64,000 nucleotides of DNA from contig NZ_ATHI01000026.1 of the NCBI RefSeq assembly GCF_000422245.1, forward strand, positions 372,001 through 436,000. Direction: 5' to 3'. Origin of the DNA: Alkalidesulfovibrio alkalitolerans DSM 16529. GTDB lineage: Bacteria; Desulfobacterota; Desulfovibrionia; Desulfovibrionales; Desulfovibrionaceae. Each line of letters starts with the position of its first letter. Positions within the stretch are counted from its first letter, which is position 1. The notes below the pieces were generated by a model. It made no database searches and was not told the origin of the DNA. It worked only from the letters and a program-made list of their open reading frames with translations. Position numbers and translations under genes: made by a program. Below are positions 17,751-34,865 of this stretch, one piece after another.

Positions 17751-17767
17751 TAGGCACGGCATTTGAT
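17751..17767 (+). promoter_or_regulatory. Sigma-54 (-24/-12) promoter of first CBS/symporter operon
   Basis: TAGGCACGGCATTTGAT fits the consensus YTGGCACGRNNNTTGCW with two mismatches; GG and GA are separated by exactly 10 bp. It lies 123 bp upstream of the CBS gene and between that gene and the divergent sigma-54-activator-like gene. Confidence 0.65.
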
Positions 17768-17794: not shown

Positions 17795-17890
17795 GGTTTT
17801 TCAGGTTCGCGCCACGAGGCGCGCCGAGTTCAGAAACATGGATCGTGCACGATCTCGACTCTTACGGAAAGTACCAGAGGAGCGAGAATG

Positions 17891-20013: not shown

Positions 20014-20463
20014 ATGGTTCAGGAAAAGCCGAAACTCTTGCTTGTCGACGACGAGGAGCGGTTTCGCACGACCTTGGGAAAGCGTCTCGTCGAGGGAGGC
20101 TACGAAGTCTTGAGCGTGGGCAGCGGGATGGAAGCGCTCGAAGTTCTGGCTCGGACTCCGGTGGACGTTGTGGTTCTCGACATAAGGATGCCTGGCTTGA
20201 GCGGCATCGAAACCCTGGCCGAGATCCGCGAAAAGCACATCGGGGTCGAAGTCCTGCTCTTGACCGGCCATGCCGACGTGCCCTCCGCCGTGGAGGGAAT
20301 GAGGCTCGGCGCTTTCGACTACCTGATGAAGCCGTATGAGTTTCAGGGGCTGGTCGCGAAAATTCAGGATGCCTACGCGGTCAAGCTTGAGCGTGACGAG
20401 AGGATCCGCAAGGCCGAGGAACGCGCGCAACTCGACAAGCTCGAAAAAAGCATGCGTTTTTAG
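20014..20463 (+). CDS. Receiver-only response regulator, module 1
   Basis: A 149-residue single REC domain without output domain. It has the acidic pair (LLLVDDEERFR), phospho-acceptor Asp in VVVLDIRMPGLSG, Thr in LLLTGHADVPSAVEG, and Lys in FDYLMKPYEFQGL. The C-terminus is a charged helix (ERDERIRKAEERAQLDKLEK, then SMRF). The receiver resembles those of NtrC/DctD-type regulators, but the AAA+ and DNA-binding parts are absent. AGGAGG precedes the ATG. It follows the symporter by 58 bp. It probably works as a phospho-relay intermediate or by protein contact. Paralogues at 33855 and 34416 share the same tail, which may be the partner-binding element. Confidence 0.9.
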   Translation: MVQEKPKLLLVDDEERFRTTLGKRLVEGGYEVLSVGSGMEALEVLARTPVDVVVLDIRMPGLSGIETLAEIREKHIGVEVLLLTGHADVPSAVEGMRLGAFDYLMKPYEFQGLVAKIQDAYAVKLERDERIRKAEERAQLDKLEKSMRF

Positions 20464-20476
20464 GTCTTGCATCCAG

Positions 20477-20512
20477 CCATTTCCCCGTCGCGGCGCTCCG
20501 GCGGGGAAATGG
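20477..20512 (+). other. Hairpin after the first receiver gene
   Basis: CCATTTCCCCG (20477-20487) pairs with CGGGGAAATGG (20502-20512) across a GC-rich loop. There is no U-run. It could end the upstream transcript segment or stabilise its mRNA. Confidence 0.55.
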
Positions 20513-20543
20513 CGAATCCGATTCGGTGGATGGAGAGATGGGA

Positions 20544-20777
20544 ATGAAGGACGAAGCTTTTAGCAAGGAAATGCGGACGGGAACGGAAAAGGCTGCCCCT
20601 GAGCCCGGCGCCGCGTCCGAGTTTGTCCCGTTCAAGGCGCTTCATCACCTGCCTCGCGGCAAAAACGCCTGGAACCCCGCCATCCTGAAGAAGTGGTGGT
20701 TCTGGCCTGCGAGCGTGCTGGGTCTCATCCTTCTGAACGTGCTGTGCACGCTCGTGAGAACGCTTCTGGGCGAATGA
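20544..20777 (+). CDS. Small single-span membrane protein
   Basis: A 77-residue protein with a charged N-terminal half (MKDEAFSKEMRTGTEKAAPE) and one C-terminal membrane helix (WWFWPASVLGLILLNVLCTL, about 52-71), ending VRTLLGE. GGAG lies 8 nt before the ATG at 20544; two in-frame ATGs just upstream have worse spacing. It sits between two receiver genes in the same operon, and no counterpart is seen in the module at 31.7 kb. No family is recognised. An inner-membrane accessory or scaffold for the symporter or kinases is possible but is inference. Confidence 0.65.
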   Translation: MKDEAFSKEMRTGTEKAAPEPGAASEFVPFKALHHLPRGKNAWNPAILKKWWFWPASVLGLILLNVLCTLVRTLLGE

Positions 20778-20804
20778 CCCGGAGGAACCCAAGGAGAGCT
20801 TGCC

Positions 20805-21218
20805 ATGATGCCCGTTGCTTCCGGCCAAAACGCAGTGGTTCCCAGAATACTTCTGGTGGACGACGAAGAACGCTTCCTTCGCACCCTGGGCAAGCGCATG
20901 CTGGAACGCAATCAGAACGTCGTCACTGCGAGCAGCGGTCTGGAAGCTCTACGCATCGTTTCGGAGCAACCCATTGATGTGGTCGTTCTGGATGTGAAGA
21001 TGCCGGGTTTGGACGGCCTGGAAACCCTGACGGAGCTCAAGAAACGTCATCCAGAAACGGTGGTGATCCTGCTTACCGGGCATGCCTCGATCGAGATGGC
21101 CACCGAGGGGGTGCGCATGGGAGCGTTCGAGTATCTGATGAAACCCTGCGATGTGGACACCCTCATTGACCACATCGGAAGAGCATATGCCCAGAAGCTG
21201 GAGCGCAGGCGCGCCTGA
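20805..21218 (+). CDS. Receiver-only response regulator
   Basis: A 137-residue lone REC domain: ILLVDDEERFLRTLGKRM, phospho-acceptor in VVVLDVKMPGLDGLE, VILLTGHASIEMATEGV, and FEYLMKPCDVDTLIDHIG. It has no output domain. The C-terminal tail (YAQKLERRRA) is shorter than in the other island receivers, and MKPC replaces MKPY, grouping it with the receiver at 27420 rather than with the symporter-linked ones. AAGGAG precedes the ATG pair. It lies 27 bp after the small membrane protein gene and 48 bp before the second CBS gene. The likely donors are the two CACHE kinases downstream. Confidence 0.88.
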   Translation: MMPVASGQNAVVPRILLVDDEERFLRTLGKRMLERNQNVVTASSGLEALRIVSEQPIDVVVLDVKMPGLDGLETLTELKKRHPETVVILLTGHASIEMATEGVRMGAFEYLMKPCDVDTLIDHIGRAYAQKLERRRA

Positions 21219-21266
21219 TCACCGGGGCATTGGCGGCAATCAAGCCGGAAGACGTGGAGGAAGAAC

Positions 21267-21827
21267 ATGGAATCGATGACTGTCGAAAAACTGATGATAC
21301 CTGCCGAGCGATTCCCGAGGATATCCGAGGAGGAGACGTTCGGAACGGTGGTGAGGACGCTCAACCAATGCCACGAGGATTACAAATCGGGAAAAAGCGA
21401 ACAGTGCATCCTGCTGGTTCACGACGAGAGGGGTCGCGTCGTGGGGAAAATATCCCCCATGGACGTTTTGCGTGGGCTCGAACCCCAGTACTCGAAGATG
21501 GGCGAGGCCGTGGGCGCCCATACCCTTGGCGCCTCGTACGATCACATGATGCGCTCGCTCTTCGATCAAGCGACCCTGTGGACAAGGCCTCTCAAGGAAC
21601 TTTGCTCCAAGGCGCGCGACGTGAAGATCAAGGATTTCATCCGCCGTCCCACCGCCGCGCAGACGGTGGACATCACGGACAGCCTCGACCAGGCGGTGCA
21701 CCGTTTCGTCATGGGCCGCCACGATTCGCTGTTTGTCACCGACGGCGCGCAGCTTCGCGGGATGCTGTTGTTTTCCGACCTGTACGCGCACATGTCCAGA
21801 ATCATGAACGAGACCTGCAACCTCTAA
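21267..21827 (+). CDS. Stand-alone CBS-pair protein, module 2 (divergent copy)
   Basis: A 186-residue CBS-pair protein: VEKLMIPAERFPRIS to RVVGKISPMDVLRGLEP, then VKIKDFIRRPTAAQTV to QLRGMLLFSDLYAHM. It is clearly homologous to the module 1 and 3 proteins but much more divergent, with a different C-terminus (SRIMNETCNL). GGAGG precedes the ATG by 8 nt. It is followed by symporter 2 after a 69-bp gap. Divergence from the other two suggests a different ligand setting or an older duplication. Confidence 0.85.
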   Translation: MESMTVEKLMIPAERFPRISEEETFGTVVRTLNQCHEDYKSGKSEQCILLVHDERGRVVGKISPMDVLRGLEPQYSKMGEAVGAHTLGASYDHMMRSLFDQATLWTRPLKELCSKARDVKIKDFIRRPTAAQTVDITDSLDQAVHRFVMGRHDSLFVTDGAQLRGMLLFSDLYAHMSRIMNETCNL

Positions 21828-21896
21828 CACGACGGGATGGTTTCCCGCACAGCGGGAAAGGAGAAAGCGCAAACGTAATGAGAAGGGGTGTTCGAA

Positions 21897-23360
21897 ATGA
21901 CCGCTGAAGCCAAGAAAGCAGATTATAGAGATCGGCCTGAAGACGAACTCCTCGTGGAGGAGCATCCTTCCGGCCCCGAACAATCAGGCCGCAGCATAAT
22001 AATAAAAGTGCTGCTGGCCATTGCAGTGGGACTAGGCGTCTACGCCTTGCCTACACCGGATAATTTGTCTCCCGAGGGGCACAGATTCCTCGCGTTGCTT
22101 CTGTCCATCGTTATCCTGTGGGTTACGGAAGCCATACCGATCGGCGTCTCAGCGCTGGTCGCGGCGGCCGGATTGATCCTCTTCGGCATTCAAAGTCCTG
22201 GTGCGGCCTGGGCTCCCTTCGCCAGCCCGGCGGTCATGTTCGTGCTCATGATCGTCATGTTCGGCGTCGTGCTCAACGAAGTGGGCCTGGCAAACAGGAT
22301 CATGTATTACGTGTTCAAGATGGCGGGCACAGGAGTCAAGAAGCTCAGCTTCGTGTTGGCTGTTGGCTGTACGATGATGGCCACCGTTTTCCATGATGCA
22401 ACTGTCACGGTCATCATGATTTTCGCCTTGGTCCCGGTTTTTGTGTCCATGGGGATAACGCCCCTCAAAAGCAACAATCTTTCGAAGTTTTTTATAATTC
22501 TCATTCCCTTGGCATCATCGGCCGGCGGTTTCGGAACGCTGCTAGGCGGCGGGCGAAATCCCCTGGCTGTCGAAATATTGCAGTCGTTCACCAATGGCAA
22601 GGTCACGGTCGGCTTCATGGAGTACATCGTGATCCAGTTTCCTCTGGCCTTTCTGACCGCGGTGGCCACCTGGGGCGTACTCTGGCTGATCTTCAGGCCC
22701 AAGGAAAAGGAACTGCCCGCCGAGGTCATGATGGATAAGATGCCTCCCATGCGCGGCAAGGAACTTGGCGTGACGATCATTTTCACCCTCACGTTCATCA
22801 TGTGGACCCTTTCCGATCTCACCGGCTGGCATGTGAGCGTCGTGGCCGCCTTGGCGCTGGCCGGTTTCTGCGGCCCAAAGTTCATTTCCTTCAAGACGAT
22901 CTGCGACAAATTCCCTTGGGAATCCTGGATCGTCTTCGGCGCAGGCGTGTCAATGGGCGCGGCGATGTTGAGCTCCGGAGCCGGCCAGTACCTCGCCGAA
23001 GTCTGCCTGCCGCTTCTCGATGGGCAGCCCTCCTTCGTCGTCTTCTATGGCTTCGGCTTCTTCGGATCGTTCCTGTCGAGCCTCATGAGCAACTCGGCGG
23101 CGGTGGCCCTCACCCTGCCCATCACGTTGCCCATGGCCGAAATGATGAACATGTCGCCCCAGGCGGTGGCGCTGCTCTCACCGATCACGACCTCCTTCAT
23201 CATGCTGGTCATCGGCTGCCCGCCGACGATCATCGCCTACAGCACGGGCTACTTCAGCCAGATAGAATTCGTGAAGGTGGCCGTTCCCTGGTGTCTTACG
23301 TTGCTGCTCGTCTCCACCGTGGGAGTTCTCCTGTATTGGCCCATGATCGGATTCTATTGA
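21897..23360 (+). CDS. DASS/SLC13-like anion symporter, module 2
   Basis: A 487-residue paralogue of the symporter at 18501, colinear over the whole length: VTEAIPIGVSALVAAAG, FHDATVTVIMIFALVPVF, GGFGTLLGGGRNPLAVEI, MSNSAAVALTLPITLPMAEM, IGCPPTIIAYSTGYFSQIEF. The N-terminal tail differs (ADYRDRPEDELLVEEHPSGP) but keeps the acidic block before QSGRS. The HDATVT sequence again stands where an SNT motif is expected. The ATG at 21897 has AAGGGG 8 nt upstream; a GTG three codons earlier is an alternative start. No hairpin follows it and no receiver gene is attached, unlike the other two symporters. Substrate unknown; sulfate or dicarboxylate class is likely. Confidence 0.87.
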   Translation: MTAEAKKADYRDRPEDELLVEEHPSGPEQSGRSIIIKVLLAIAVGLGVYALPTPDNLSPEGHRFLALLLSIVILWVTEAIPIGVSALVAAAGLILFGIQSPGAAWAPFASPAVMFVLMIVMFGVVLNEVGLANRIMYYVFKMAGTGVKKLSFVLAVGCTMMATVFHDATVTVIMIFALVPVFVSMGITPLKSNNLSKFFIILIPLASSAGGFGTLLGGGRNPLAVEILQSFTNGKVTVGFMEYIVIQFPLAFLTAVATWGVLWLIFRPKEKELPAEVMMDKMPPMRGKELGVTIIFTLTFIMWTLSDLTGWHVSVVAALALAGFCGPKFISFKTICDKFPWESWIVFGAGVSMGAAMLSSGAGQYLAEVCLPLLDGQPSFVVFYGFGFFGSFLSSLMSNSAAVALTLPITLPMAEMMNMSPQAVALLSPITTSFIMLVIGCPPTIIAYSTGYFSQIEFVKVAVPWCLTLLLVSTVGVLLYWPMIGFY

Positions 23361-23860
23361 GAAAATAACGCCGGGACGGATGCAATGAACAAACAAAATG
23401 CGGAGCTGAACCTCAACGCGGCCGCGCGTCCCACTTCCTCGACGCGTCCACGCCCGTGTTCCTCACCCCAGGGGATTTCCTCGCGCCGCACTATGTCCTC
23501 GTCCGCTTTCGTTCGATCCGTCCCGGCGTTATTCAATATGCAATGCTTCCTCGGCCCGGACATCCGTGCTGTCTTCTTCAGGCATGTCCCGGCTGCAACT
23601 CCTCGAAGACGCACGTTCTTCGTCACTGCGCTTCCGGCGGCCTCCATGGTCGAAATCTTGGATTTCCCTCGTCGCGTTGCCATGGGTCGCAGAACACGCC
23701 TGCTGACCTTCGTTCATGATTCATGGAAGATGAAATTTGCTCGAACAAAATGTGGAAACGAGATGCTGCCACCAGGATATCGCACGACTGCGCCACACAA
23801 AGAATGGTCGGCTTGCATTTGCAATAGACAGTCAAGCAATGGGACAGAAACGAGGACAAT
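23361..23860. other. 500-bp gap without a convincing gene
   Basis: Short frames exist on both strands, but none has a family match, a ribosome site and consistent codon use together. The first 100 bp (from an ATG at 23385) look GC3-rich like coding DNA, then character is lost, which could mean a decayed gene. The last 150 bp are AT-rich and probably carry the promoter for the kinase genes that follow. Confidence 0.45.
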
Positions 23861-25549
23861 ATGCTGAATGCACTGTCGGACAACAAGAAGCGGCGCATAG
23901 TATTCACTGTTTTAGTATACATATTCATGCCTGCAATTTTTGTCGCCGCAGGCGCGTTCATTTATTCGATCAACGAAATTGACGGGGACACGCGCTCGCG
24001 ATTCAAAGAAAACATGGAGATCATGGCAAGAAAATACAAAAAGAATACAGACGTCAACATCAAGGATCTTTTGAGCATTGTGCAGTTCACATCCGACCTG
24101 CACTCGCTCGGTGAACTGAGGTCGCCGGAGAATCTTGCTTCCGTGTTCAGCAAGATGGATCGAGATTTTGACCATGTATTCGAGGATATCGGCATCCTCG
24201 GCGAAGATGGAAAGCACTTGGCCTATGTCGGCCCTCATGATCTCCTTGAAATGGATTACAGCAAGGAGGAGTGGTTCCTCGACGTAATGGAGAATGGCGT
24301 CACCGTCAGCGACGTTTTCCTCGGGTATCGCCGTTCTCCACATTTCATCATCGCCATAAAGAAAGAGAACGGCAAGCAGACTTGGGTCATGCGCGTCACG
24401 GTCAATGTCTTCTTGTTCAGTTCACTATTGGACAACATCCGCCTGGGGCGTACTGGCGAAGTGTTCATCGTTAACTCGGAGGGGGTGCTACAGACCAGAT
24501 CCCTCACTCACGGAGCGATTCTCCAGAAGGTTGACGATGCCCTTTTGCGTTCCATCTCGACTGGCGCCGACGGGTCCTTCAAGCGAGAGCTCCAGGGAGT
24601 TGTCTTTGACTACACGATCGCCAGGCTGACCTCCAAGTCAGACTGGTGGCTTGTGGTGCAACGAGAAGAACGTGAACTGAACCAAGCACTTCGGACGCGA
24701 ACCGCCAACTACGCCTTGCTTTTCGGCGTGTGCGTCCTTCTTCTGGCGGGAGCGGCGGTTCTGGGCCTTCGCCTCCTGCTCGCCCAGGTCGAGAAGATCG
24801 ACATGGAAAAGACGCTGCTGAACGATCAGGTCATCCAGTCGCAAAAACTCGCCGCCATCGGCCAGCTCTCGGCGGGCATCGCTCACGAGATCAACAACCC
24901 CCTGGCGATCATCGGCGAAGAGGCCGGATGGCTCCAGGATCTGCTCAAGCGCGAGACGATGGCCAGATTCGCGGAGATAGACGAATTTCATGACTCCCTG
25001 CGGGAGATAGTGACCCAGGCGGGGCGGTGCAGGGAAATCACGCACAAGCTCCTCAGCTTCGCACGCAAGATGGACTCCACGATTCGGGATGTGGATATGC
25101 ACACTCTCGTGTCCGAAGTCGTGGGCATGCGCGAGCGGGAAGCGACCCTGAACAACATCAGCATAGTCAAGGAGTTCGCCTCCGATCTCCCGATCATCCA
25201 CAGCGAGCCCTCGCTGTTACGCCAAGTCCTTCTCAATCTCCTGAACAACGCCATCGACGCCATTCACGGAGGCGGCCGAATCACGATCTCCGTCAGCAAG
25301 CTGTCGGAGGGCGGCATCACCGTGAGCATCAGCGATACGGGCATCGGGATCCCCAAGGAGAATCTGGACAAGATATTCGACCCCTTCTTCACCACCAAGG
25401 AGCCCGGACGAGGAACGGGTCTGGGATTGTCCATCTGCCATGGAATAATCCAGAAGCTGGGCGGTGAAATTTCTGTCCACAGCCAGCCGGGAGAAGGGAC
25501 CACATTCATCATCAACCTTCCGCAGGAAGCTCCAGCCGACATTCGCTAG
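23861..25549 (+). CDS. Sensor histidine kinase with periplasmic CACHE domain (kinase 1)
   Basis: A 562-residue NtrB/DctB-type kinase. Membrane helix IVFTVLVYIFMPAIFVAAGA (about 13-32), periplasmic double-CACHE-like sensor (about 40-285; VFLGYRRSPHFIIAIKK is the typical small-ligand strand region), second helix LLFGVCVLLLAGAAVLGLRL (about 290-310), HisKA with the phospho-acceptor in AGIAHEINNPLAII (about 340), then HATPase with LLNLLNNAIDAIHGG, DTGIGIPKENL and GTGLGLSI. It ends 67 bp before kinase 2, with the same architecture. Codon use is more AT-rich than in the flanking chromosome. DctB-like kinases sense transported anions in the periplasm, which fits a role beside symporters, but the ligand is unknown. 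No full-length DNA-binding partner is encoded nearby, only lone receivers. Confidence 0.92.
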   Translation: MLNALSDNKKRRIVFTVLVYIFMPAIFVAAGAFIYSINEIDGDTRSRFKENMEIMARKYKKNTDVNIKDLLSIVQFTSDLHSLGELRSPENLASVFSKMDRDFDHVFEDIGILGEDGKHLAYVGPHDLLEMDYSKEEWFLDVMENGVTVSDVFLGYRRSPHFIIAIKKENGKQTWVMRVTVNVFLFSSLLDNIRLGRTGEVFIVNSEGVLQTRSLTHGAILQKVDDALLRSISTGADGSFKRELQGVVFDYTIARLTSKSDWWLVVQREERELNQALRTRTANYALLFGVCVLLLAGAAVLGLRLLLAQVEKIDMEKTLLNDQVIQSQKLAAIGQLSAGIAHEINNPLAIIGEEAGWLQDLLKRETMARFAEIDEFHDSLREIVTQAGRCREITHKLLSFARKMDSTIRDVDMHTLVSEVVGMREREATLNNISIVKEFASDLPIIHSEPSLLRQVLLNLLNNAIDAIHGGGRITISVSKLSEGGITVSISDTGIGIPKENLDKIFDPFFTTKEPGRGTGLGLSICHGIIQKLGGEISVHSQPGEGTTFIINLPQEAPADIR

Positions 25550-25616
25550 AGAGCGGGCGATGAAAGGTGGCAACGTGACCGGTCGAACATCGCACGAGAC
25601 AAGGAAGGAATAAGAA

Positions 25617-27332
25617 ATGGCATACCATCCTTACTACAGTCCCTTTCGACGCAGGATGATACTGCTGATCATACTTGCCTCGCTGCTCCCCATAATGTTT
25701 CTTGCTTTTGCCTGGAGCAGCCACTTCCAATCCTCCTATTCAGAAAAGACGATCGCCCATGCCGAATCGTTGGTCGAACAGCACCGACAAAACGTGGACA
25801 TCTTCTTGCGACAGTGTCTGTCGGAACTGCAAATCATCGCAGACCTGGCAGGACAGGAAATGCTGCGTGACGGCGAGGTGCTCGAAGATCTGCTGACTAT
25901 CTTGCAAACTCGAAGCCAAGACGTTTTCGTGGATATAGGCGTGGTCTCGAGCGACGGAAGGCAGGTCGCCTATGCCGGTCCATTGCAGCTCGACGGCGCG
26001 GACTACTCCGAGGCCGAGTGGTTCAGGCAGGCCATGAACCGCCAGTCCTACATCTCCGATGTGTTCAGCGGACTGCGCGGGTCTCCGCATTTCATCGTCG
26101 CCGACCACAGAGTCTGGGGAGGACGTGAATTCGTCGTCCGGGCGACCATCGACTTTGCAACATTCAACGATCTCATCGATGACATCAGCCTTGGACATAC
26201 GGGATTGGCATATATTGTGGACCGAGCGGGCACGCTGCAGGTTCATGCTCGGCGCATGGAATTCACGCCAGATCCCCGCGAACTTCTGGAAATCATAAGC
26301 GAAAACGTCGGAAGCGCTGCAGGAATCGAACGGACCGCCGGGGTCGTTTCAACGATTCGAAAGAGCCCGGGAACCGGCAAGGATGTTCTGTTCGTCGTCG
26401 CCCCCCTCAAGGACGGCGACTGGCTCCTAGTTTTCCAGCAAGAGGCGGATGATGCCTTCGCCGCCTTGAAGACAGCCCGAATACTGGCACTTTCAGGCAT
26501 CCTGCTCACCGCTTTCGCCGTCGGAGCCATGGCCTTTGTGCTTTCCGGCCGCATGGTGCGCATGCTGCAGAAGATCGACAAGGAAAAGGAGACCATGAAC
26601 GAGCAAGTCATCAAGGCAGGCAAGCTGGCCTCCCTTGGCGAGCTCGCGGCGGGAATCGGTCATGAGATCAACAATCCGGTGGCGATCATGATGGAAGAAG
26701 CCGGCTGGGTGGAAGACATCCTGGCCGATGGAATCCAGACCGAGCAAGACAAGGCCGAGATCAAGCGCGCTTTGGCCCAGATACGTACCCAGGGTCGGCG
26801 CTGCCGCGAGATTACCCACAAATTGCTCACCTTCGCGCGCAAGCGGGAACCGTCGCATTCCGATGTGGATTTGAGCGCCCTCGTGCGCGAGATGGTCGAA
26901 CTCTCCCTGCAGCGGGCCCGCTTCGCCAATGTCGAAATCGTGCAGGATCTGGCCGAGAATCTGCCCCCCTTGTACGTTTCCTATTCCGAACTGCAGCAGG
27001 TGGCTTTGAACCTCATCAACAACGCCCTGGATGCGATGGAAGAGAAGGGCGGAGTTCTTACGCTTTCCACGATCCGACAGGGCGACAACCTGGTCCTCTC
27101 CGTCGAAGACACGGGACACGGGATTCCGAAGACCAATCTGAACAGGATATTCGATCCGTTCTTCACCACGAAGCCGGTCGGCAAGGGAACCGGGCTCGGG
27201 CTCTCCATCTGTTACGGAATAATTCAGAAGATGGGTGGGAAGCTCGAAGTCGCAAGTCGCGTCGGGCACGGCAGCAAATTTACGGTCAGTCTCCCGATAA
27301 GGGCAAAACGCCCGGAGGAAGATGAAGGATAG
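25617..27332 (+). CDS. Sensor histidine kinase with periplasmic CACHE domain (kinase 2)
   Basis: A 571-residue paralogue of kinase 1 with the same layout. First helix IILASLLPIMFLAFAW, periplasmic CACHE-like domain (VFSGLRGSPHFIVADH), second helix ILALSGILLTAFAVGAMAFV, HisKA phospho-acceptor in AAGIGHEINNPVAIM (about 350), and HATPase with ALNLINNALDAMEEKGG, DTGHGIPKTNL and GTGLGLSICYG. The ATG at 25617 has AAGGAA 7 nt upstream. It is followed by a receiver-only gene 87 bp downstream. The sensor halves of the two kinases differ far more than the catalytic halves, suggesting related but distinct ligands read by a shared set of receivers. Confidence 0.92.
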   Translation: MAYHPYYSPFRRRMILLIILASLLPIMFLAFAWSSHFQSSYSEKTIAHAESLVEQHRQNVDIFLRQCLSELQIIADLAGQEMLRDGEVLEDLLTILQTRSQDVFVDIGVVSSDGRQVAYAGPLQLDGADYSEAEWFRQAMNRQSYISDVFSGLRGSPHFIVADHRVWGGREFVVRATIDFATFNDLIDDISLGHTGLAYIVDRAGTLQVHARRMEFTPDPRELLEIISENVGSAAGIERTAGVVSTIRKSPGTGKDVLFVVAPLKDGDWLLVFQQEADDAFAALKTARILALSGILLTAFAVGAMAFVLSGRMVRMLQKIDKEKETMNEQVIKAGKLASLGELAAGIGHEINNPVAIMMEEAGWVEDILADGIQTEQDKAEIKRALAQIRTQGRRCREITHKLLTFARKREPSHSDVDLSALVREMVELSLQRARFANVEIVQDLAENLPPLYVSYSELQQVALNLINNALDAMEEKGGVLTLSTIRQGDNLVLSVEDTGHGIPKTNLNRIFDPFFTTKPVGKGTGLGLSICYGIIQKMGGKLEVASRVGHGSKFTVSLPIRAKRPEEDEG

Positions 27333-27419
27333 AGGGCGAACCTCTAGCAAAACAGGGATCAACGGCAAGCGAGGGCTCTATCGTGGACACTCCTGCCGAA
27401 AACAATGGAGGATTCAATC

Positions 27420-27848
27420 ATGAGCGTCAAAATTTTACTGGTTGATGATGAGCAGGGATTCGTCGAGACCATGGAGAAGCGCCTCACCAAGCGCGGAATC
27501 GAGGTCAAGACCGCCCTCTCCGGACAGGCGGCTCTGGAGGCATTGGCGGAGGGGGGCGTGGAGGTCGTGGTGCTGGATGTGAAGATGCCCGTCATGGACG
27601 GCATCGAAACATTGCGGCGCATCAAGGCCGAGTACCCGCTGACCGAGGTGATCATGCTGACCGGTCACGGGACAGTGGAAACCGCCATCGAGGGCATGAA
27701 GCTCGGGGCATACGACTACATGCTCAAGCCGTGCGAACTCGAAGAACTGATGGACAAGGCCAAGCTCGCGGCGGGCAGACGCCGTGAACACGAGCAGCGT
27801 ATTGTCGAGGCGCGGGCGCAGAGCATCGCCCTGAGACGCGGAGACTAG
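27420..27848 (+). CDS. Receiver-only response regulator after kinase pair
   Basis: A 142-residue REC domain: ILLVDDEQGFVETMEKRL, VVVLDVKMPVMDGIETL with the phospho-acceptor, VIMLTGHGTVETAIEGM and YDYMLKPCELEELMDKA. It has no output domain; the tail is REHEQRIVEARAQSIALRRG. The start at 27420 follows GGAGG by 8 nt; an ATG five codons upstream overlaps that site. With MLKPC and TGHGTVETA it is closest to the receiver at 20805. Position suggests it is the direct phosphate acceptor of kinase 2. A GC hairpin closes the gene, after which the IS remnant begins. Confidence 0.9.
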   Translation: MSVKILLVDDEQGFVETMEKRLTKRGIEVKTALSGQAALEALAEGGVEVVVLDVKMPVMDGIETLRRIKAEYPLTEVIMLTGHGTVETAIEGMKLGAYDYMLKPCELEELMDKAKLAAGRRREHEQRIVEARAQSIALRRGD

Positions 27849-27856
27849 CAACGAAC

Positions 27857-27897
27857 AGGGCTGGCCCGGCATCGACTCCCGTGGCTGGGCCAGCCCT
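27857..27897 (+). terminator. Hairpin at end of kinase/receiver operon
   Basis: AGGGCTGGCCC (27857-27867) pairs perfectly with GGGCCAGCCCT (27887-27897) across a 19-nt loop, 9 bp after the receiver stop. There is no U-run, so termination is likely but not certain. Confidence 0.5.
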
Positions 27898-27950
27898 TCC
27901 GGCATCCCTCCGCACCAAACCCAAAACCTCAAACAGAGTCGTGGGTCGCC

Positions 27951-28352
27951 ATGAATCATTCTGATTATGAACGGATATGGCAGATTGTCGGGCCGCTCCT
28001 GCCCAAGCCGCCGCCGCGTCCTCGCGGAGGGCGCCGCCGCCTGAGCAATAAATCCGTCTTGCGAGGCATACTGTTCGTTTTGGAGACGGGCACTCCTTGG
28101 GAGCATCTGCCGACGGAGATGGGATGCGGATCGGGAATGACGTGCCTGCGACGCCTTCGGGAATGGCAAAACACCGGAGTCTGGGATCTCATCAGAGCGG
28201 TGCTTCTTGCGGTGATGAAAGAGGCGCACCGGCTTGACTGGAATCGATTTGCGGCATGCCCCAACCCGAAGCCGGTTCCTCGAAGAAGCAAGAAACGGTT
28301 TGCAGGTCGAGTTGGGGAAAGCGGAGAAAAACGCAAAGAGATTTCAGCATAG
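27951..28352 (+). pseudogene. IS5-type (IS427-like) transposase N-terminal fragment
   Basis: The frame starts like the helix-turn-helix part of IS5-family transposases: YERIWQIVGPLLPKPPPRPR, GGRRRLSNKSVLRGILFVLE, TGTPWEHLPTEMGCGSGMTC, then LREWQNTGVWDLIRAVLLAV. It keeps this similarity to about residue 97 (RLDWNRF) and then runs into unrelated sequence. The DDE catalytic half (second frame in IS427 elements) is absent, so this is a dead remnant. It separates the kinase/receiver block from the PEP-synthase-like gene and shows past insertion activity on the island. Confidence 0.85.
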
Positions 28353-28369
28353 CCCTGTCAGTGACAGGG
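28353..28369. promoter_or_regulatory. Palindrome upstream of PEP-synthase-like gene
   Basis: CCCTGTCA, one central G, TGACAGGG form a perfect palindrome 55 bp before the next gene's start. It could be a repressor operator or a small hairpin. The TGACA half-sites are typical of dimeric regulators, but no family is assigned. Confidence 0.35.
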
Positions 28370-28424
28370 GCGAAATCGAAACGGAACCGTTGCGACCAAA
28401 GTTCTCACGTAATGCGAGAGGTTG

Positions 28425-30992
28425 ATGCCCAAGCTTCTTGAGTTTTTCCGACGCAACTCCGTCATTCGTCGCGAGTCGCGCGACGATCTGACCCTCGAAC
28501 GGCGATACCGGGCGTTCAAGAGTCTCCTTGCTGGCAACAATCAGGCGCTGGAATTGCTGACCGACTTGGAGAGGCTCATCTACGAAGGGCGCTCCTTCAC
28601 CCAGGACGAGGCACTCGGTCTGGCCGAAACCCTGGTCGGCGGAGTCTACGACCTGGTCGAAGACCTTAATGCCCTTTCCGGGGGCGCATTTCCGGAATTG
28701 TTCGATCGAGCCGAAACTATCGGCATCAAGGCGCTTCGCGCTCTCTCGCGACGCCGTTCGTTCGATTCCCCACTGATCGTGCTCCCGCTCGAACGCCTGT
28801 CGCTGGAAAACCTGGATGAAGTCGGGGGCAAGGCGGCCAATCTCGGCGAGGTTGGCAACAGGGTCGGTCTCCCGACCCCGCAAGGATTCGCCGTGACCGC
28901 CTCGGCGGCCGCCCTCTTCATGCGCTATTCAGGATTGCAGGAAACCCTCGGCCGTATGCTGGCGAAGGTGGACGTCTCTGATACGGCTGCGCTCGAAGAC
29001 GCATGCGAGAATGCATGGCGCCATGTTCTATCGGCCCCGCTGCCGCCCGAACTCGAAGATGCCTTGAACTCGGCTGTGCGGAGCATGGTTTCACGGCTTG
29101 GGCCGGATCTGCGGCTGGCCGTCCGCTCGTCAGCGGTCTGCGAGGATTCAGGCGCATCCTTTGCCGGACAGCATACGACCGTTCTCGGCGTCGTGCCGGG
29201 CAATGTAGCCTCCGCATGGCGCGAGGTCGTTGCCAGCATCTTTACTCCCAGGGCGGTCTTTTATCGCCGGACCAAAGGGTACTCGGATCAGGACGTCATG
29301 ATGAGCGTGCTGGTGCTGGCCATGGTGCAGGCCCGGGCCAGCGGCGTGGCATACACCGTCGATCCGAATGCGACGACCATGCGGGAAATGCTCGTCTCCG
29401 GCGTATGGGGGCTGGGTTTGAGCCTCGTGGACGGATCGGTCGACGCTGATTTCTGGCGGGTGCGGCGTGACGATCACGCGATTGTCGCCAGCACGACCGC
29501 CCGAAAAACCGAACGTTTGAAGTTTCTTCCGGATGGCGGAACGACTGCGGAAGAATTGCCTGAACATCTGCGGACGGCGCCTTGCCTGACTCCTGAACAG
29601 GTTGCCAGGCTCGCGGAGTACGCCCAACGGCTTGAAGACCATTACGGGATGCCGCTCGATGTCGAATGGGCTCTTGACGAAGGTGAGCGTTTCCTCATCC
29701 TTCAGACGCGGCCGTTGATGCGCGCGCAAGAACTTCCGCAGGCGGAATGCTGCGAATTCGTTCCCGGGCACACTCCTTTGCTGGCCGGTGGTCAAGCGGC
29801 TTCGCCAGGCACCGCATCGGGCGTCGCCTATGTTGTCCAGACCAGCCATGCCCTTCATTCCATCCCCAAAGGATCCATCCTGGTCGCCAAGCAGACGTCG
29901 CCGGCCTATGTGGCCGCCATGGGCAAGGTGGCGGGCATCGTCACGGACACGGGCAGCGTGACGGGCCACATGGCTTCGGTGGCTCGGGAATTCGGGATTC
30001 CCACGCTGGTCGGGGTTGGCCGGGCCACCCACATCCTTCCCCACGGGCAGGAAATCACCCTGGACGCCACGAACAAGGTGGTCTATCCGGGGCGCGTCCG
30101 AGAAATTTTGTCCGAAAAAAAGCCCGTGAACCTCATGAAGGGCAGTCCTGTCTACAAGTCATTGCAGGAAGCGCTGAAACTCATCGCGCCGCTCAACCTG
30201 GTGGATCCGGAGAAGCCTGAATTCACGGCCAGGGGATGCCGCACCCTGCACGACGTCATCCGCTTCGCCCACGAGATGGCCATGCGCCGGATGTTCTCCA
30301 TCGCCGACGACATGGATATGGAAGCAGGACCGGCAGTGCCGCTTTTCACGGGCCTTCCATTGAATATCCTCGTCATCGACCTGGGTGGGGGGCTCGTTGA
30401 CCTTGGTGCAAGAAGAGTTGCCGAGATTGAGGATATCAGATGTATTCCTTTCAAGGCCCTTCTCGACGGAATGCGTCATCCCGATATTCGATGGCATGGC
30501 GAACGTGATTCTTCGTTGTCGGGATTCGACATGGTCGTGTCCGGCTCGGTGTTTCGTACGCCGCAGGCGATGAGAGGGCATGGTGGCACAAATTATTCAA
30601 TAATATCAAATGAATATATGAACTTTCATGGTCGGATGGGCCACCATTTCGCAACCGTGGACACCTACTGCGGCCCAGTCATAAACGACAACTACGTGAT
30701 GTTCTCCTTCAAGGGTGGGGCGGCCGACGTCGGAAGGCGCACGAGACGCGCACGGCTCATTGCCGAAACTCTGCGCTGGCTTGGATTCCGGGTTGTCCAG
30801 AAGGGCGATTCACTTCGAGCGGAGATAAAGAAGTACGACCAAAAACGCATTTCGGAGAAGGTGGATAACCTCGGACGTCTTCTGGGGGCCATGCGTCACC
30901 TGGACATGAGCCTGTCCGACGATGCCCAGATAGATTGGTATGTCGCTGAATTTTTGAAGGGCAACTATACATTCGATCGCAACCGCCCGTGA
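28425..30992 (+). CDS. PEP synthase/PPDK-like protein with unusual C-terminus
   Basis: An 855-residue protein. After an N-terminal helical region (about 1-120) comes the PEP/pyruvate-dikinase nucleotide-binding domain: VGGKAANLGEVGNRVGLPTP (about 134), LRLAVRSSAVCEDSGASFAG (about 228) and VMMSVLVLAMVQARASGVAY. The swivelling phosphohistidine domain follows (TDTGSVTGHMASVAREFGIP, about 505; His in TGHMAS). The PEP/pyruvate-binding TIM barrel is not recognisable. Instead there is a roughly 290-residue C-terminal domain with ILVIDLGGGLVDLGAR, GRMGHHFATVDTYCG and YVMFSFKGGAADVGRR. Such proteins are phosphotransferase-like with an unknown acceptor. Weak AGAGG precedes the ATG at 28425. It stands between the IS remnant and the second sigma-54 operon. 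Confidence 0.82.
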   Translation: MPKLLEFFRRNSVIRRESRDDLTLERRYRAFKSLLAGNNQALELLTDLERLIYEGRSFTQDEALGLAETLVGGVYDLVEDLNALSGGAFPELFDRAETIGIKALRALSRRRSFDSPLIVLPLERLSLENLDEVGGKAANLGEVGNRVGLPTPQGFAVTASAAALFMRYSGLQETLGRMLAKVDVSDTAALEDACENAWRHVLSAPLPPELEDALNSAVRSMVSRLGPDLRLAVRSSAVCEDSGASFAGQHTTVLGVVPGNVASAWREVVASIFTPRAVFYRRTKGYSDQDVMMSVLVLAMVQARASGVAYTVDPNATTMREMLVSGVWGLGLSLVDGSVDADFWRVRRDDHAIVASTTARKTERLKFLPDGGTTAEELPEHLRTAPCLTPEQVARLAEYAQRLEDHYGMPLDVEWALDEGERFLILQTRPLMRAQELPQAECCEFVPGHTPLLAGGQAASPGTASGVAYVVQTSHALHSIPKGSILVAKQTSPAYVAAMGKVAGIVTDTGSVTGHMASVAREFGIPTLVGVGRATHILPHGQEITLDATNKVVYPGRVREILSEKKPVNLMKGSPVYKSLQEALKLIAPLNLVDPEKPEFTARGCRTLHDVIRFAHEMAMRRMFSIADDMDMEAGPAVPLFTGLPLNILVIDLGGGLVDLGARRVAEIEDIRCIPFKALLDGMRHPDIRWHGERDSSLSGFDMVVSGSVFRTPQAMRGHGGTNYSIISNEYMNFHGRMGHHFATVDTYCGPVINDNYVMFSFKGGAADVGRRTRRARLIAETLRWLGFRVVQKGDSLRAEIKKYDQKRISEKVDNLGRLLGAMRHLDMSLSDDAQIDWYVAEFLKGNYTFDRNRP

Positions 30993-31554
30993 TGACGCGG
31001 GCCGGAAACCGACATTTCCGCAAGAATCGAAACCACCGCAGCGCATCTTGCCGGAAGCACAGAGTCTTTGCCTTTGCATTCCTGCGGTCTCGTCGCTCAG
31101 GTTCGCCCTCAGCCCCTTAAATTATAACCTGGGCACGAAAACCCAGCATGTTTTTTTCTCTCCTGGGTGATACGAGGTTTGCCGCTCACGGCCACCGTGC
31201 TCACACTCCCCGCTATCTTCTGTCGTCTCTGCCAGTGACGTCTGATCACAGCCCCCGCATGCTTCGTCCAAACATGATGTAACAGTTGGCGGGATTTTGA
31301 AAAGCCTGCCTGACTGCGACCTACAGGCTCCAGTTCACCTCAGTCGGTACTCACGCGCCTCGGCCTTGCCGTGTTGAGGACGCAGGCAACCTGCCAATCG
31401 CGCAAACTCGCCAATCTGCGGCCATGATTGCGCGATTAAATGCGCAGAGACTGCTCCGGTAAACTGCAATATGCATTTTTCCTGAATCAAAGTTAAGATT
31501 TTTTACTTTTTAAAAACAAATAGTTAAAACTGCGCAAGCTCTCAAAATCTACCC
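30993..31554. other. Long regulatory gap with inverted WATCGCGCAW sites
   Basis: There is no credible gene in this stretch of about 560 bp. It contains a weak terminator at its start. An inverted pair, AATCGCGCAA (31396-31405) and TTGCGCGATT (31428-31437), has centres 32 bp apart, about three helical turns, so both would face the same side. The pair lies roughly 120-160 bp upstream of a sigma-54 promoter, the usual place for activator binding. The last 60 bp are strongly AT-rich, which suits IHF-like bending. Confidence 0.5.
31128..31157 (+). terminator. Weak intrinsic terminator candidate
   Basis: CCTGGG (31129-31134), an AT-containing loop and CCCAG are followed by CATG and TTTTTTT. The stem is only 5-6 bp, but the U-run is good. 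It would end the PEP-synthase-like transcript 135 bp after its stop. Confidence 0.4.
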
Positions 31555-31571
31555 ATGGCACGCCAAGTGCT
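31555..31571 (+). promoter_or_regulatory. Sigma-54 (-24/-12) promoter of module 3 operon
   Basis: ATGGCACGCCAAGTGCT keeps TGGCACG at -24 and GC at -12 with the required 10 bp between GG (31557-31558) and GC (31569-31570). It lies 118 bp upstream of the CBS gene and resembles the promoter at 17751 in placement. Confidence 0.75.
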
Positions 31572-31688
31572 TAAGAAACCCCAGGTGCGCGACAACTCCG
31601 CACTCTGGATTGGGTGGGTTGAGTGCAGGAAAAGGCTTACGGATGACCAGACGACTCTACGAACCATGACAGGCAAACGAGGTGACCA

Positions 31689-32243
31689 ATGAACGAACGT
31701 GTCAGGGATTTCATGGTCCCAATCAGCAAGTTCCCCATGATCTCCGAGGCGGCGACATTCGCAGGGGCGGTCATGGCGCTTGAGCGGGCGCAGGAGGAAT
31801 ACCTCTCCGGCAAAAAGGAGCAACGCATTCTTTTGATTCAGGACGACGAGGGGCGAATCGTCGGCAAGCTGTCGCCGATCGATGTCGTGCGAGGGCTTGA
31901 GCCCGACTACGACAAGCTCGTGGATGAGCAGGCGAGTTCCCGTGTCGTCAACTTCGACTACGTAATCCAATCCTCCAAGGAGCGGGCGTTGCTGTGGGCA
32001 AAGCCGCTCGACGATCTGTGCTCCCTGGCCAAGGATGTCCTGGTCAAGGATTTCATCCGTCATCCGACAAAGTCCCAGACCATCGAGAGCGACGAAATGC
32101 TCAACATCGCATTCCATCGCTTCGTCATGTTCAGGCACGACTCCTTGTTCGTTATGGAAGACGGCAAACTCGTCGGCTTGCTGCGGTTTTCCGACGTTTA
32201 TCGGGAGATCGTGCGGCGGATCAAGGAAGTCTGCCGTCTGTAG
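31689..32243 (+). CDS. Stand-alone CBS-pair protein, module 3
   Basis: A 184-residue near-duplicate of the module 1 CBS protein: VRDFMVPISKFPMISEAATF, RIVGKLSPIDVVRGLEPDYD, VKDFIRHPTKSQTI, GLLRFSDVYREIVRRIKEVC. Only a minority of positions differ. GAGG is 6 nt before the ATG. It is the first gene after the second sigma-54 promoter, again directly before a symporter. Keeping the same pair (CBS then symporter) behind separate sigma-54 promoters argues that the pair is one functional unit. Confidence 0.87.
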   Translation: MNERVRDFMVPISKFPMISEAATFAGAVMALERAQEEYLSGKKEQRILLIQDDEGRIVGKLSPIDVVRGLEPDYDKLVDEQASSRVVNFDYVIQSSKERALLWAKPLDDLCSLAKDVLVKDFIRHPTKSQTIESDEMLNIAFHRFVMFRHDSLFVMEDGKLVGLLRFSDVYREIVRRIKEVCRL

Positions 32244-32309
32244 CCTTTGAAGGAATGAGTGTCTTCTTTGGCGGTTTACACATCATCAAAGCAAAAACGG
32301 AGGGCTCAC

Positions 32310-33764
32310 ATGAGTGCTCACAATGTCAATACCGATTCTCCTGACGAGATCATCCTCCAGGAAGAAGAACCGCAAGGTCCCGTGCAGTCCGGTCGATCAA
32401 TCATCATAAAGGTCTTGATTTCATTGGGCCTTGGATTGCTCGTCTATCTGATTCCCATGCCGGAATCACTCCCCCCGGCCGGGCACAAGTTCCTTGGATT
32501 GGTCGTCGCAGTCATCGCTCTCTGGGTGACCGAGGCCATTCCCATCGGCATCACCGCACTGTGCGCGGCGTCCGGCCTGATACTCTTCGGTATTCAGTCG
32601 GCAAACAAGGCATGGTCGCCATTCTCAAGTCCGGCGGTCATGTTCGTGCTCATGATCATCATGTTCGGCGTGGTGTTGAACGAAGTGGGCCTCGCAAACC
32701 GAATCATGTCTTGGGTTTTCAAGCTGGCGGGACGCGGGGTCATGCGCCTGAGCTTTGTCATGGCCTTCAGTTGCACCATGCTGGCCACGTTCCTGCATGA
32801 CGCGACCGTCACGGTCATCATGCTCTTCGCCCTCGTTCCAGTGCTTCGCGCCATGGGCATCACGCCGGCCAAGAGCAACAACCTTTCCAAGTTCTTCATC
32901 ATCCTCATTCCGCTTGCAGCTTCCGCGGGCGGCTTCGGAACGCTGCTCGGCGGCGGCAGAAACCCGCTGGCCGTCGAAATCCTCACCAAGTACACCAACG
33001 GCGCGATCAAGGTCGGTTTTCTCGAGTACATGATCATCCAATTCCCGCTGGCCATCTTCACCGCCGTCGCGACGTGGCTGGTCGTGTACATGATCTTCCG
33101 GCCCAAGGAAAAGGAACTCCCGGCCGCAGTCGCCGTCGAGCAAATGCCGCCCATGCGCGGCAAGGAACTCGCCGTGTGCGTCATTTTCGGTCTCGCCTTC
33201 CTCCTTTGGGGATTCTCGGATCTCACAGGCTGGCACGTGAGCGTGGTCGCGGCCTTGGCCCTGGCCGGCTTCTGCGGACCCAAGTTCGTTTCCTTCAAGA
33301 CCATCTGCGACAAGTTCCCCTGGGAGTCGTGGATCGTGTTCGGCGCGGGCGTGTCCATGGGCCAGGCCATGCTGGATTCGGGCGCGGGCAAGTTCCTCGC
33401 CGAGCAGTTCCTGCCCCTTCTGCAGGGCCAGCATCCCTTCTTCGTGTACTACGGCATGGGCTTCTTCGGCTCGTTCCTTTCGAGCATGATGAGTAACTCC
33501 GCAGCCGTGGCCCTCACCCTTCCGGTGACCCTGCCCATGGCCGAAATGCTCAACATGTCGCCGCAGGCCGTGGCGCTGCTCGCCCCGATCACCACCTCGT
33601 TCATCATGCTGGTCATCGGCTGCCCGCCGACCATCATCGCCTACAGCACCGGCTATTTCAGTCAGACGGAATTCATCAAGGTGGCGGTGCCCTGGTGCCT
33701 GGTTCTGCTCCTTCTGTCGGTCATCAGCGTGCTCGTGTACTGGCCGATGATCGGATTCTACTAA
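32310..33764 (+). CDS. DASS/SLC13-like anion symporter, module 3
   Basis: A 484-residue paralogue, closest to symporter 1: acidic tail DEIILQEEEPQGPVQSGRSI, VTEAIPIGITALCAASG, LHDATVTVIMLFALVPVLRA, GGFGTLLGGGRNPLAVEILT, MSNSAAVALTLPVTLPMAEM, IGCPPTIIAYSTGYFSQTEF, and the shared end YWPMIGFY. The ATG at 32310 has CGGAGG 6 nt before it; a frame 17 codons longer has no ribosome site. Differences from symporter 1 cluster in the helices around VMRLSFVMAFSC and in the cytoplasmic loop with AAVAVEQMPPMRGKELAVC, so transport properties may differ. A hairpin and a receiver gene follow, as in module 1. Confidence 0.88.
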   Translation: MSAHNVNTDSPDEIILQEEEPQGPVQSGRSIIIKVLISLGLGLLVYLIPMPESLPPAGHKFLGLVVAVIALWVTEAIPIGITALCAASGLILFGIQSANKAWSPFSSPAVMFVLMIIMFGVVLNEVGLANRIMSWVFKLAGRGVMRLSFVMAFSCTMLATFLHDATVTVIMLFALVPVLRAMGITPAKSNNLSKFFIILIPLAASAGGFGTLLGGGRNPLAVEILTKYTNGAIKVGFLEYMIIQFPLAIFTAVATWLVVYMIFRPKEKELPAAVAVEQMPPMRGKELAVCVIFGLAFLLWGFSDLTGWHVSVVAALALAGFCGPKFVSFKTICDKFPWESWIVFGAGVSMGQAMLDSGAGKFLAEQFLPLLQGQHPFFVYYGMGFFGSFLSSMMSNSAAVALTLPVTLPMAEMLNMSPQAVALLAPITTSFIMLVIGCPPTIIAYSTGYFSQTEFIKVAVPWCLVLLLLSVISVLVYWPMIGFY

Positions 33765-33810
33765 CCGCCGAGGACACGACCGCCGATCACGCACCGCACA
33801 GACAACAAAC

Positions 33811-33837
33811 GCCCGCCGGCCAACAAGGCCGGCGGGC
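33811..33837 (+). other. Intercistronic hairpin, symporter 3 to receiver
   Basis: GCCCGCCGGCC (33811-33821), loop AACAA and GGCCGGCGGGC (33827-33837): a perfect 11-bp stem in the same place as the hairpin at 19970, with no U-run. Confidence 0.7.
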
Positions 33838-33854
33838 CTCACCCGGAGGAAACC

Positions 33855-34316
33855 ATGAGTGAGAATATGCCGATAGTATTGCTTGTCGATGACGAGGAAC
33901 GCTTTCGCACGACTCTTGGCAAGCGGCTGACCGAGGCGGGGATACCTGTCGAGACGGCGGGAAGCGGCATGGATGCCTTGCAAATTCTCGCCGAAAAGCC
34001 CGTTGACGTGGTCATATTGGACATCAAGATGCCCGGCCTAAGCGGCATCGAGACGCTGACCGAGATACGGAACAAGCACATCGGGGTCGAGGTGCTCCTC
34101 CTGACAGGCCATGCCGACGTGCCGTCGGCGGTGGAGGGAATGCGGCTCGGGGCCTTCGACTATCTGATGAAGCCGTATGAGTTCCAGGGGCTGCAGGCCA
34201 AGATACAGGAGGCGTTCAAGGTCAAGGTGGACCGGGACGAGCGCATCCGCAAGGCCCGGGAGCGTGCCGTCCTCGACAAGATCGCCTCGCCAAGAGCTTG
34301 GACGCGAGGGGATTGA
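33855..34316 (+). CDS. Receiver-only response regulator, module 3 (first)
   Basis: A 153-residue REC domain nearly identical in its core to the module 1 receiver: VLLVDDEERFRTTLGKRL, VVILDIKMPGLSGIETL, LLLTGHADVPSAVEGMRLGA, FDYLMKPYEFQGLQAKIQEA. The tail begins alike (DRDERIRKARERAVLDKI) but ends differently (SPRAWTRGD), as if the last codons were replaced. CGGAGG precedes the ATG. It follows the symporter directly, then another receiver gene follows 99 bp downstream. Confidence 0.9.
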   Translation: MSENMPIVLLVDDEERFRTTLGKRLTEAGIPVETAGSGMDALQILAEKPVDVVILDIKMPGLSGIETLTEIRNKHIGVEVLLLTGHADVPSAVEGMRLGAFDYLMKPYEFQGLQAKIQEAFKVKVDRDERIRKARERAVLDKIASPRAWTRGD

Positions 34317-34371
34317 TCGCTAATCGGGTCCGCATGGACCTAAACTTGAAAATTGTGTAGTCTACCCGCAT

Positions 34372-34396
34372 CCCCCGATCCAATCCGGATCGGGGG
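34372..34396 (+). other. Hairpin between the two module 3 receivers
   Basis: CCCCCGATCC (34372-34381), loop AATCC, GGATCGGGGG (34387-34396): a perfect 10-bp stem directly before the ribosome site of the next gene. No U-run. Confidence 0.6.
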
Positions 34397-34415
34397 AAAG
34401 CGCGGGAGAAAGGCC

Positions 34416-34865
34416 ATGAACCAGACCATGCCGAATATTCTCATCGTTGACGACGAGGAACGTTTCCGCATTACGCTGGGCAAGCGCCTGAAGGAAGCAG
34501 GCTTTCCGGTCGAAACAGTGGGTGGGGGACAAGAAGCGCTTGATCATCTCACGCAGCACGCGGTGGACGTCGTCATCCTGGACATAAAAATGCCCGGCCT
34601 GAACGGCATCGAAGTCCTGGCGGAAATCCGGCGCAGACATATCGGGGCCGAAGTGCTCCTGCTGACCGGCCATGCAGAGGTGGCTTCGGCTGTCGATGGA
34701 ATGCGGCTCGGCGCGCATGACTACTTGATGAAGCCGTACGAATTCCAAGGGCTGCAGGCCAAAATCCACGACGCCTACAAGGTCAAGCTGAATCGCGAGG
34801 AACGCCTGAGAAAAGCCGAAGCCCGGGCCCAACTCGACAAATTGGAAAAGAGCATCCGGTTTTAG
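34416..34865 (+). CDS. Receiver-only response regulator, module 3 (second)
   Basis: A 149-residue REC domain: ILIVDDEERFRITLGKRLKE, VVILDIKMPGLNGIEVL, LLLTGHAEVASAVDGMRLGA, HDYLMKPYEFQGLQAKIHDA, tail REERLRKAEARAQLDKLEKS and IRF. The tail matches the module 1 receiver at 20014 (KLEKSMRF), so these two keep the full-length form while the gene between them does not. GGGAG lies upstream of the ATG at 34416; the frame extends 21 codons further through the hairpin, which is not credible as coding. It is the last gene of the module. Confidence 0.9.
   Translation: MNQTMPNILIVDDEERFRITLGKRLKEAGFPVETVGGGQEALDHLTQHAVDVVILDIKMPGLNGIEVLAEIRRRHIGAEVLLLTGHAEVASAVDGMRLGAHDYLMKPYEFQGLQAKIHDAYKVKLNREERLRKAEARAQLDKLEKSIRF

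Follow-up and report, generated by a model that had tools for sequence, protein, structure and literature searches.

We analyzed a 64,000-nucleotide stretch of the Alkalidesulfovibrio alkalitolerans DSM 16529 genome (contig NZ_ATHI01000026.1, forward-strand positions 372,001 to 436,000; hereafter the window, in whose own numbering all positions are given) that encodes five receiver-only two-component proteins among genes for anion symporters. The framework of the locus is formed by three paralogous modules on the forward strand, in each of which a gene for a CBS-domain protein precedes one for a symporter of the DASS/SLC13 family: CBS1 (17888..18445; PF00571, 2.5e-07) with symporter 1 (18501..19955; PF00939, 6.7e-40), CBS2 (21267..21827; 1.2e-07) with symporter 2 (21888..23360; 3.3e-35), and CBS3 (31689..32243; 1.2e-07) with symporter 3 (32259..33764; 1.3e-40). 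Among these modules lie the five receiver genes, two histidine kinase genes, a phosphoenolpyruvate (PEP)-synthase-like gene, and a gene for a small protein with a hydrophobic stretch. The receivers, all on the forward strand, are named here by the starts given in an initial annotation of this DNA, and all five were recovered in the list of open reading frames (ORFs): 20014 (20014..20463), 20805 (20805..21218), 27420 (27405..27848, directly 3' of the second kinase), 33855 (33855..34316), and 34416 (34416..34865, with its ATG at 34416 in an ORF of 34353-34865).

Each receiver contains a single PF00072 domain, scoring 98.6-107.3 bits against a cut-off of 30.2, and the Pfam scan found no other family at an E-value of 0.001 in any of them. 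The residues D12/D13, D56, T84, and K106 (20014 numbering), which we take to be those needed for phosphorylation, are invariant across the five, so that all have the makeup of single-domain response regulators: one PF00072 domain, no output domain, and intact phosphorylation residues. They lack the C-terminal winged helix of OmpR/WalR-type regulators, and no AAA+ or DNA-binding domain follows the receiver as in the NtrC/DctD type, which they resemble only in receiver and linker. The whole genome holds 95 PF00072 matches, and a profile built from the five scored these members at 223-271 bits and the genome's next receiver at 128, a comparison in which the profile favors its own members. Pairwise identity is 47% between 20805 and 27420, 50-55% between 20805 and the other three, and 45-55% when either is compared with those three, which makes the first pair no more alike than each is to the others.

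The initial annotation had divided the five into two sequence types, one comprising 20014, 33855, and 34416, which share MKPYEFQGL and a charged tail and were said to follow symporters, and the other comprising 20805 and 27420, with MKPC and a place before a CBS gene or after a kinase. MKPYEFQGL is indeed found in all three members of the first type, KLEKSMRF ends 20014, and KLEKSIRF ends 34416, while the C-terminal end of 33855 is LDKIASPRAWTRGD. MKPC was confirmed in 20805, but 27420 reads MLKPC, and the neighbors were described correctly in general, except that 34416 follows receiver 33855 and not a symporter.

To place these receivers, relatives were gathered from 34 loci of named records (one of them, L034, a distant archaeal match) and from loci of further genomes. 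From 209 distinct receiver domains, those with a score of 75 bits or more, or taken from loci of the genome itself, entered a 188-row tree, including 27 receivers from loci around the genome's own closest receivers; the five window receivers do not group with the bulk of these 27. A 77-row tree was then built from rows hand-picked by clade from the 188 (83 picked, six near-copies dropped). In this tree, 20014, 33855, and 34416 (hereafter the trio) fall in a 19-row clade (support 100/98) in which most receivers come after a DASS gene, and 33855 and its tandem neighbor 34416 form a local duplicate pair (100/91). The corresponding clade of the 188-row tree has 22 rows, most of them tailed, and 16 of these directly follow a DASS gene, which supports the tie between the trio and the symporter. 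Receiver 20805 joins the trio in an enclosing 37-row clade (96/96), which we call the A clade, and its nearest rows follow kinases of the type of the first window kinase (91/81). In contrast, 27420 lies outside the A clade; it grouped weakly (83 and 90) with receivers that follow relatives of the second window kinase in the 188-row tree, a group left unresolved in the 77-row tree.

Forcing 20805 and 27420 together as a clade cost 19.9 log-likelihood units and gave p = 0.093 in the approximately unbiased (AU) test, so that this grouping is disfavored, although not formally rejected. The sequences of helix 1 (DDEERFRTTLGKRL in 20014, DDEERFLRTLGKRM in 20805, and DDEQGFVETMEKRL in 27420) give a similar picture, as that of 20805 is close to the trio's and that of 27420 is closer to receivers beside the second kinase than to the A clade. 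Judged from sequence, it is improbable that 20805 and 27420 represent one type, and the two clades expected from the earlier division were not found. The distinction between MKPY and MKPC was also considered as a type marker and was ruled out, since even the clade of the trio is variable at the residue after KP: its 22 rows have Y in nine, C in eight, and H in five, and the 20 further rows of the enclosing clade, which counts 42 rows in the 188-row tree, have C in 19 and Y in one. Across the enclosing clade, C follows KP in 27/42 rows, with the full MKPC string in 24, and in 27420's group C is found at this position in 2/10. Overall, the division into two sequence types finds no support.

The charged tail, on the other hand, is real and, unlike the residue after KP, separates the trio from 20805 and 27420. 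A pattern for the tail (RDERLRKAEERAxLDKLEK..), written after the alignment had been viewed, matches 31 of the 42 receivers of the enclosing A clade and misses 33855, which has an altered form. Among the ten remaining rows, five directly follow a kinase gene, four share a WQKHW tail, and one is 20805; the tailed receiver L070_2758 also directly follows a kinase gene. In the 31 tailed rows, the mean frequency of the top residue is 0.72 in the tail and 0.80 in the core, the tail figure being overstated because the rows were selected by the tail pattern. An AlphaFold2 model of 20014 (mean pLDDT 90.9, last block 76) has helix 5 and the tail as one helix, residues 110-148, and the solved structures that match along the tail include the receiver and linker of NtrC1, DctD, NtrX, and FixJ (PDB 1ny5, 1qkk, 5m7p, and 5xso). 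The likeness to these regulators consists of the receiver fold and a helix 5 that runs on into a linker; the difference is that no AAA+ or DNA-binding domain follows. Based on these matches, the modeled tail looks like a dimerization or signaling helix and represents no new fold.

Two further observations concern receiver tails. The end of 33855 departs from the shared tail, and another reading frame continues in a tail-like manner, making a small indel possible. In addition, a second class of receiver tail, with WQKHW, is seen at L047 688, L062 4138, L023 2712, and L026 1889.

The association of such receivers with symporters extends across the gathered loci. The mapped loci contain 63 distinct genes of this DASS subfamily that score at least 600 bits (duplicate loci skipped), and 43 of these directly adjoin a receiver ORF of the same orientation; 55/63 share a run with a CBS gene. 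There are 45 such adjacent receiver ORFs, all of 143-191 aa, which leaves no room for an output domain and is at odds with a winged helix; these figures are ORF lengths rather than domain scans. DASS genes under 600 bits were excluded, among them L013_4193 and L023_4587, which belong to another subfamily and lie beside receiver ORFs of 310 and 303 aa. In genome scans (E up to 1e-120), the subfamily was detected in 17 of 199 genomes of the order and, with at most four candidates scored per genome, in one of 395 genomes of the phylum, namely that of the window.

Both window kinases carry H, N, and G boxes. The first, HK1 (23861..25549), has a dCache-like sensor that scores under the Pfam cut-off, followed by HisKA and HATPase_c, and the second, HK2 (25617..27332), has dCache, HisKA, and HATPase_c; both are on the forward strand. 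In a tree of 66 kinases (six ORFs that were too short or had no usable H box were excluded, and duplicate loci were skipped), HK1 belongs to a group of 19 kinases (94/88), 13 of which were mapped beside an A-clade receiver, either directly or across a small membrane gene, and the receivers beside these 13 are mostly tailed. HK2 belongs to a group of nine (100/100), seven of which are directly followed by a receiver of 27420's weakly supported group. Together with the likeness of helix 1, these neighborhoods predict that HK1 would prefer the trio and 20805 and HK2 would prefer 27420, a division that cuts across the two types of the initial annotation, with the proviso that neighborhood is not phosphotransfer. 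In Desulfotignum records (L010, L012, L014, L015, L020, and L025), downstream of the DASS gene come, in turn, a receiver gene, a kinase ORF of 386-397 aa with a receiver domain of its own, and another receiver gene.

Transcription of the modules has another candidate regulator. Divergent from the first module, on the reverse strand, lies a gene for an AAA+ sigma-54 activator without a receiver domain (14892..17573; Sigma54_activat, 1.4e-60), the N-terminal half of which has no Pfam match and resembles, on visual inspection, a membrane-bound sensor; relatives of this activator are also divergent from CBS-DASS genes in other loci. An imperfect sigma-54-like -24/-12 site precedes CBS1 (17752..17766, forward strand; score 12.7 of 15.7) at a place similar to that of sites in orthologous regions, and another, with one mismatch to the consensus, precedes CBS3 (31556..31570, forward strand; 14.2 of 15.7). 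To compare upstream regions, we collected 31 regions 5' of CBS genes of at least 170 bits and scored them, using weights that were not fitted to these data, against 200 dinucleotide shuffles. Sigma-54-like sites were found in 16/31 regions (null mean 2.32, maximum 6), and in 14/31 a site lies 120-180 nt before a conserved codon (null mean 0.56, maximum 4). As both the score threshold of 12.5 and the 120-180 nt range were set after a first look, this excess is descriptive. Taken with the divergent activator, the sites make another route to transcription likely, and module transcription is more likely driven by this activator than by the receivers.

A receiver without an output domain would, when phosphorylated, act by contact, and we therefore tentatively propose that the locus encodes two-component control of a transporter through protein contact, a reading that we favor over the others but consider short of probable. 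HK1 would sense an outside signal, perhaps the transported anion, for which sulfate is a candidate, and would phosphorylate the tailed receivers 20014, 33855, and 34416. These may then use their receiver face and extended helix 5 to act on a product of the module itself (symporter, CBS protein, or small membrane protein), so that uptake could be tuned faster than by transcription. Receiver 20805, with nearly the same helix 1 and no tail, would be a second receiver of HK1, serving as a phosphate sink or branch, and HK2 with 27420 would form a separate pair. In its most specific form, in which the phosphorylated receiver binds a complex of symporter, CBS protein, and small membrane protein via helix 5, gates anion import directly without transcription, and has the tail-less receiver as its off-branch, the proposal appears somewhat unlikely.

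Several findings weigh against contact control as proposed here. Twenty of the 63 DASS genes have no immediately adjacent receiver, and one A-clade receiver, L059_2563, was not counted among the 45 because it reads within an ORF of 368 aa, which overlaps the adjacent DASS gene and probably has a wrong start. The window's own HK1 follows symporter 2 and adjoins no receiver, for six of the 19 kinases in its group no neighboring A-clade receiver was mapped (of these six, L070_15504 comes after receivers of other groups), an A-clade receiver comes directly after L012_3, a kinase that is not in the group, and support for the group is just under star level. The tail could be merely a dimerization helix, given that its matches are the receiver and linker of NtrC1, DctD, NtrX, and FixJ, and the Desulfobotulus receivers L004_8903 and L004_11827 combine this tail with a core that falls elsewhere than in the A clade. 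As for the separate transcriptional route, GC at -12 is missing from 11 of the 16 sigma-54-like sites, and near-identical genomes contributed several of the regions. When the entire window was scanned with the plain sigma-54 consensus, 5 sites were found where chance predicts 4.52, so that the information comes from comparing upstream regions alone.

Other explanations were considered alongside contact control. The tail-less receiver 20805, and perhaps 27420, could be a phosphate sink or hub among HK1, HK2, and the tailed receivers, similar to MrrA or LovR, in which case a relay via a kinase and without a histidine phosphotransfer (HPt) protein would be conceivable. MrrA does hand phosphate to kinases, as described in the abstract of PMC5964349, and in L062 and L063 an HK1-type kinase is flanked upstream by a tailed receiver (in L063 with a small membrane gene between them) and downstream by one without a tail; but 20805 sits on a long branch, its tie to the L062 and L063 receivers has support of 91/81, and helix 1 of 27420 is nearer to that of HK2-side receivers than to that of the A clade. 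We consider a shared sink or hub unlikely. The receivers could instead control transcription in trans, with the tailed ones docking on the sigma-54 activator at 14892-17573 or on another DNA-binding partner. This agrees with the match of the model to NtrC1 and to the receiver and linker of DctD, with the presence, in several loci, of a receiver-less sigma-54 activator in divergent orientation to the first module, and with the promoter action proposed for these regulators in passages of PMC11887813. However, the activator seems to own a sensor half (seen by eye, with no Pfam match), no window receiver has a recognized DNA-binding domain, and in clusters such as L062, L063, and L070 the mapped stretch has tailed-type receivers but lacks this activator, although other sigma-54-type genes match there. 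We regard control in trans as likewise unlikely.

It could also be argued that paralogues have simply accumulated, and that the receivers are remnants of duplicated modules, several of them without a distinct present function. The three near-copies of the CBS-DASS pair, with symporters 2 and 3 being 80 and 82% identical to symporter 1, the tandem pair 33855/34416, and the altered tail end of 33855 would all fit such a history. As the phosphorylation residues are kept in all five receivers and CBS-DASS-receiver arrangements recur across loci, this account is improbable. The initial annotation had suggested a relay in which 20805 and 27420 pass phosphate from kinases to 20014, 33855, and 34416, and the presence of five receivers and two kinases in one cluster, with 27420 directly following a kinase, might point in this direction. 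Against it, the two supposed donors are probably not one type, tailed-type receivers lie directly upstream of HK1-type kinases in L064 and L066, and a PF01627 search found no HPt in the window or its contig (nine matches lie elsewhere in the genome). Since the contig has no HPt and the receivers on the transporter side neighbor a kinase family of their own, the relay as proposed finds no support and seems very improbable, although a distant HPt, or a kinase serving as the phosphotransfer link, could act in a multi-step phosphorelay.

Clusters of this kind have been described before. In 2025, a DASS cluster with CBS and two-component genes was assigned to sulfate uptake, and related clusters were noted in 26 species of sulfate reducers in total; in the passages of that paper on the cluster, the regulators are called WalR-type and drawn acting at promoters, and the CBS proteins are speculated to sense the cell interior (PMC11887813). 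The window has the same combination of DASS, CBS, and two-component genes, and it resembles those clusters of Desulfobacteraceae and other sulfate reducers in its several two-component genes and its cache-domain kinases. It differs in that its regulators are receiver-only where those of the published cluster, the genes of which include Dvar_38230 and Dvar_38430, are called WalR-type, and the same passages make no mention of a sigma-54 activator, a small membrane protein, or a PEP-synthase-like gene (PMC11887813). Any role of the CBS proteins within contact control is putative. Terms such as response regulator and CBS do not occur in the main text of PMC5840216.

There are precedents for receivers without an output domain that act on membrane-associated enzymes or serve as hubs. 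EpsW, a single-domain response regulator of Myxococcus, acts post-translationally on a membrane-associated phosphoglycosyl transferase (PMC12802240); like the window receivers it has no output domain, but its signal is chemosensory, whereas the target predicted here is a secondary transporter. In Caulobacter, the single-domain receiver MrrA is a hub that passes phosphate to kinases, and LovK works with the phosphate sink LovR (PMC5964349); hub and sink work among several kinases there, and the abstract draws no link to a transporter, while our receivers are encoded beside symporters. KdpD controls the Kdp pump both at transcription and after translation (PMC11018627), with the kinase itself acting on the transporter, where here a receiver is proposed to do so. 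A receiver-only regulator of a DASS/SLC13 symporter was not found among the literature matches listed, which is no proof of absence. The cluster type and receiver-only regulators are thus already known, and what appears new, judged by the literature matches listed, is their combination with an SLC13 symporter as the presumed direct target.

The remaining gene products bear on this target to different degrees. All three symporters score above the PF00939 cut-off and so belong to the DASS/SLC13 family, while the two copies tested fall under the cut-off of NCBIfam TIGR00785 (183.9 and 165.1 against 198.6). PDB matches include NadC-type transporters, SLC13A1, and others, and sulfate is a candidate substrate. 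The first motif of symporter 1 (18501-19955) reads HDATVT by eye, at a position where carboxylate carriers presumably have SNT, and its substrate specificity may differ. CBS2 and CBS3 are 45 and 76% identical to CBS1. The small protein (20526..20777, forward strand; 83 aa, with one hydrophobic stretch by eye) has no match in the Pfam scan, and a strongly conserved stretch, KPLHNLPRGKNTWNP..WWFWP, is common to 17 distinct sequences from the mapped loci, counting that of the window; the protein is a possible accessory subunit. The PEP-synthase-like protein (28422..30992, forward strand) has PPDK_N and PEP-utilizers mobile domains and a C-terminal third without a Pfam match, and its gene recurs beside HK1-type kinases in L057, L058, L064, L066, and L068. 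A paralogue elsewhere on the contig (C26:257196) lies directly 3' of another stand-alone receiver (C26:256646). Between the genes for 27420 and the PEP-synthase-like protein, Pfam identifies a fragment of an IS4/5-type transposase (DUF4096, 27951-28352).

Dissimilatory sulfate reduction begins with the uptake of sulfate, the regulation of which has been little tested. If output-less receivers do act on transporter complexes, the published promoter model, as drawn in the passages of PMC11887813 on the cluster, would change, and a secondary symporter would be under contact control by a two-component system. Concrete candidates for such binding are the tail common to these receivers and the small membrane protein.

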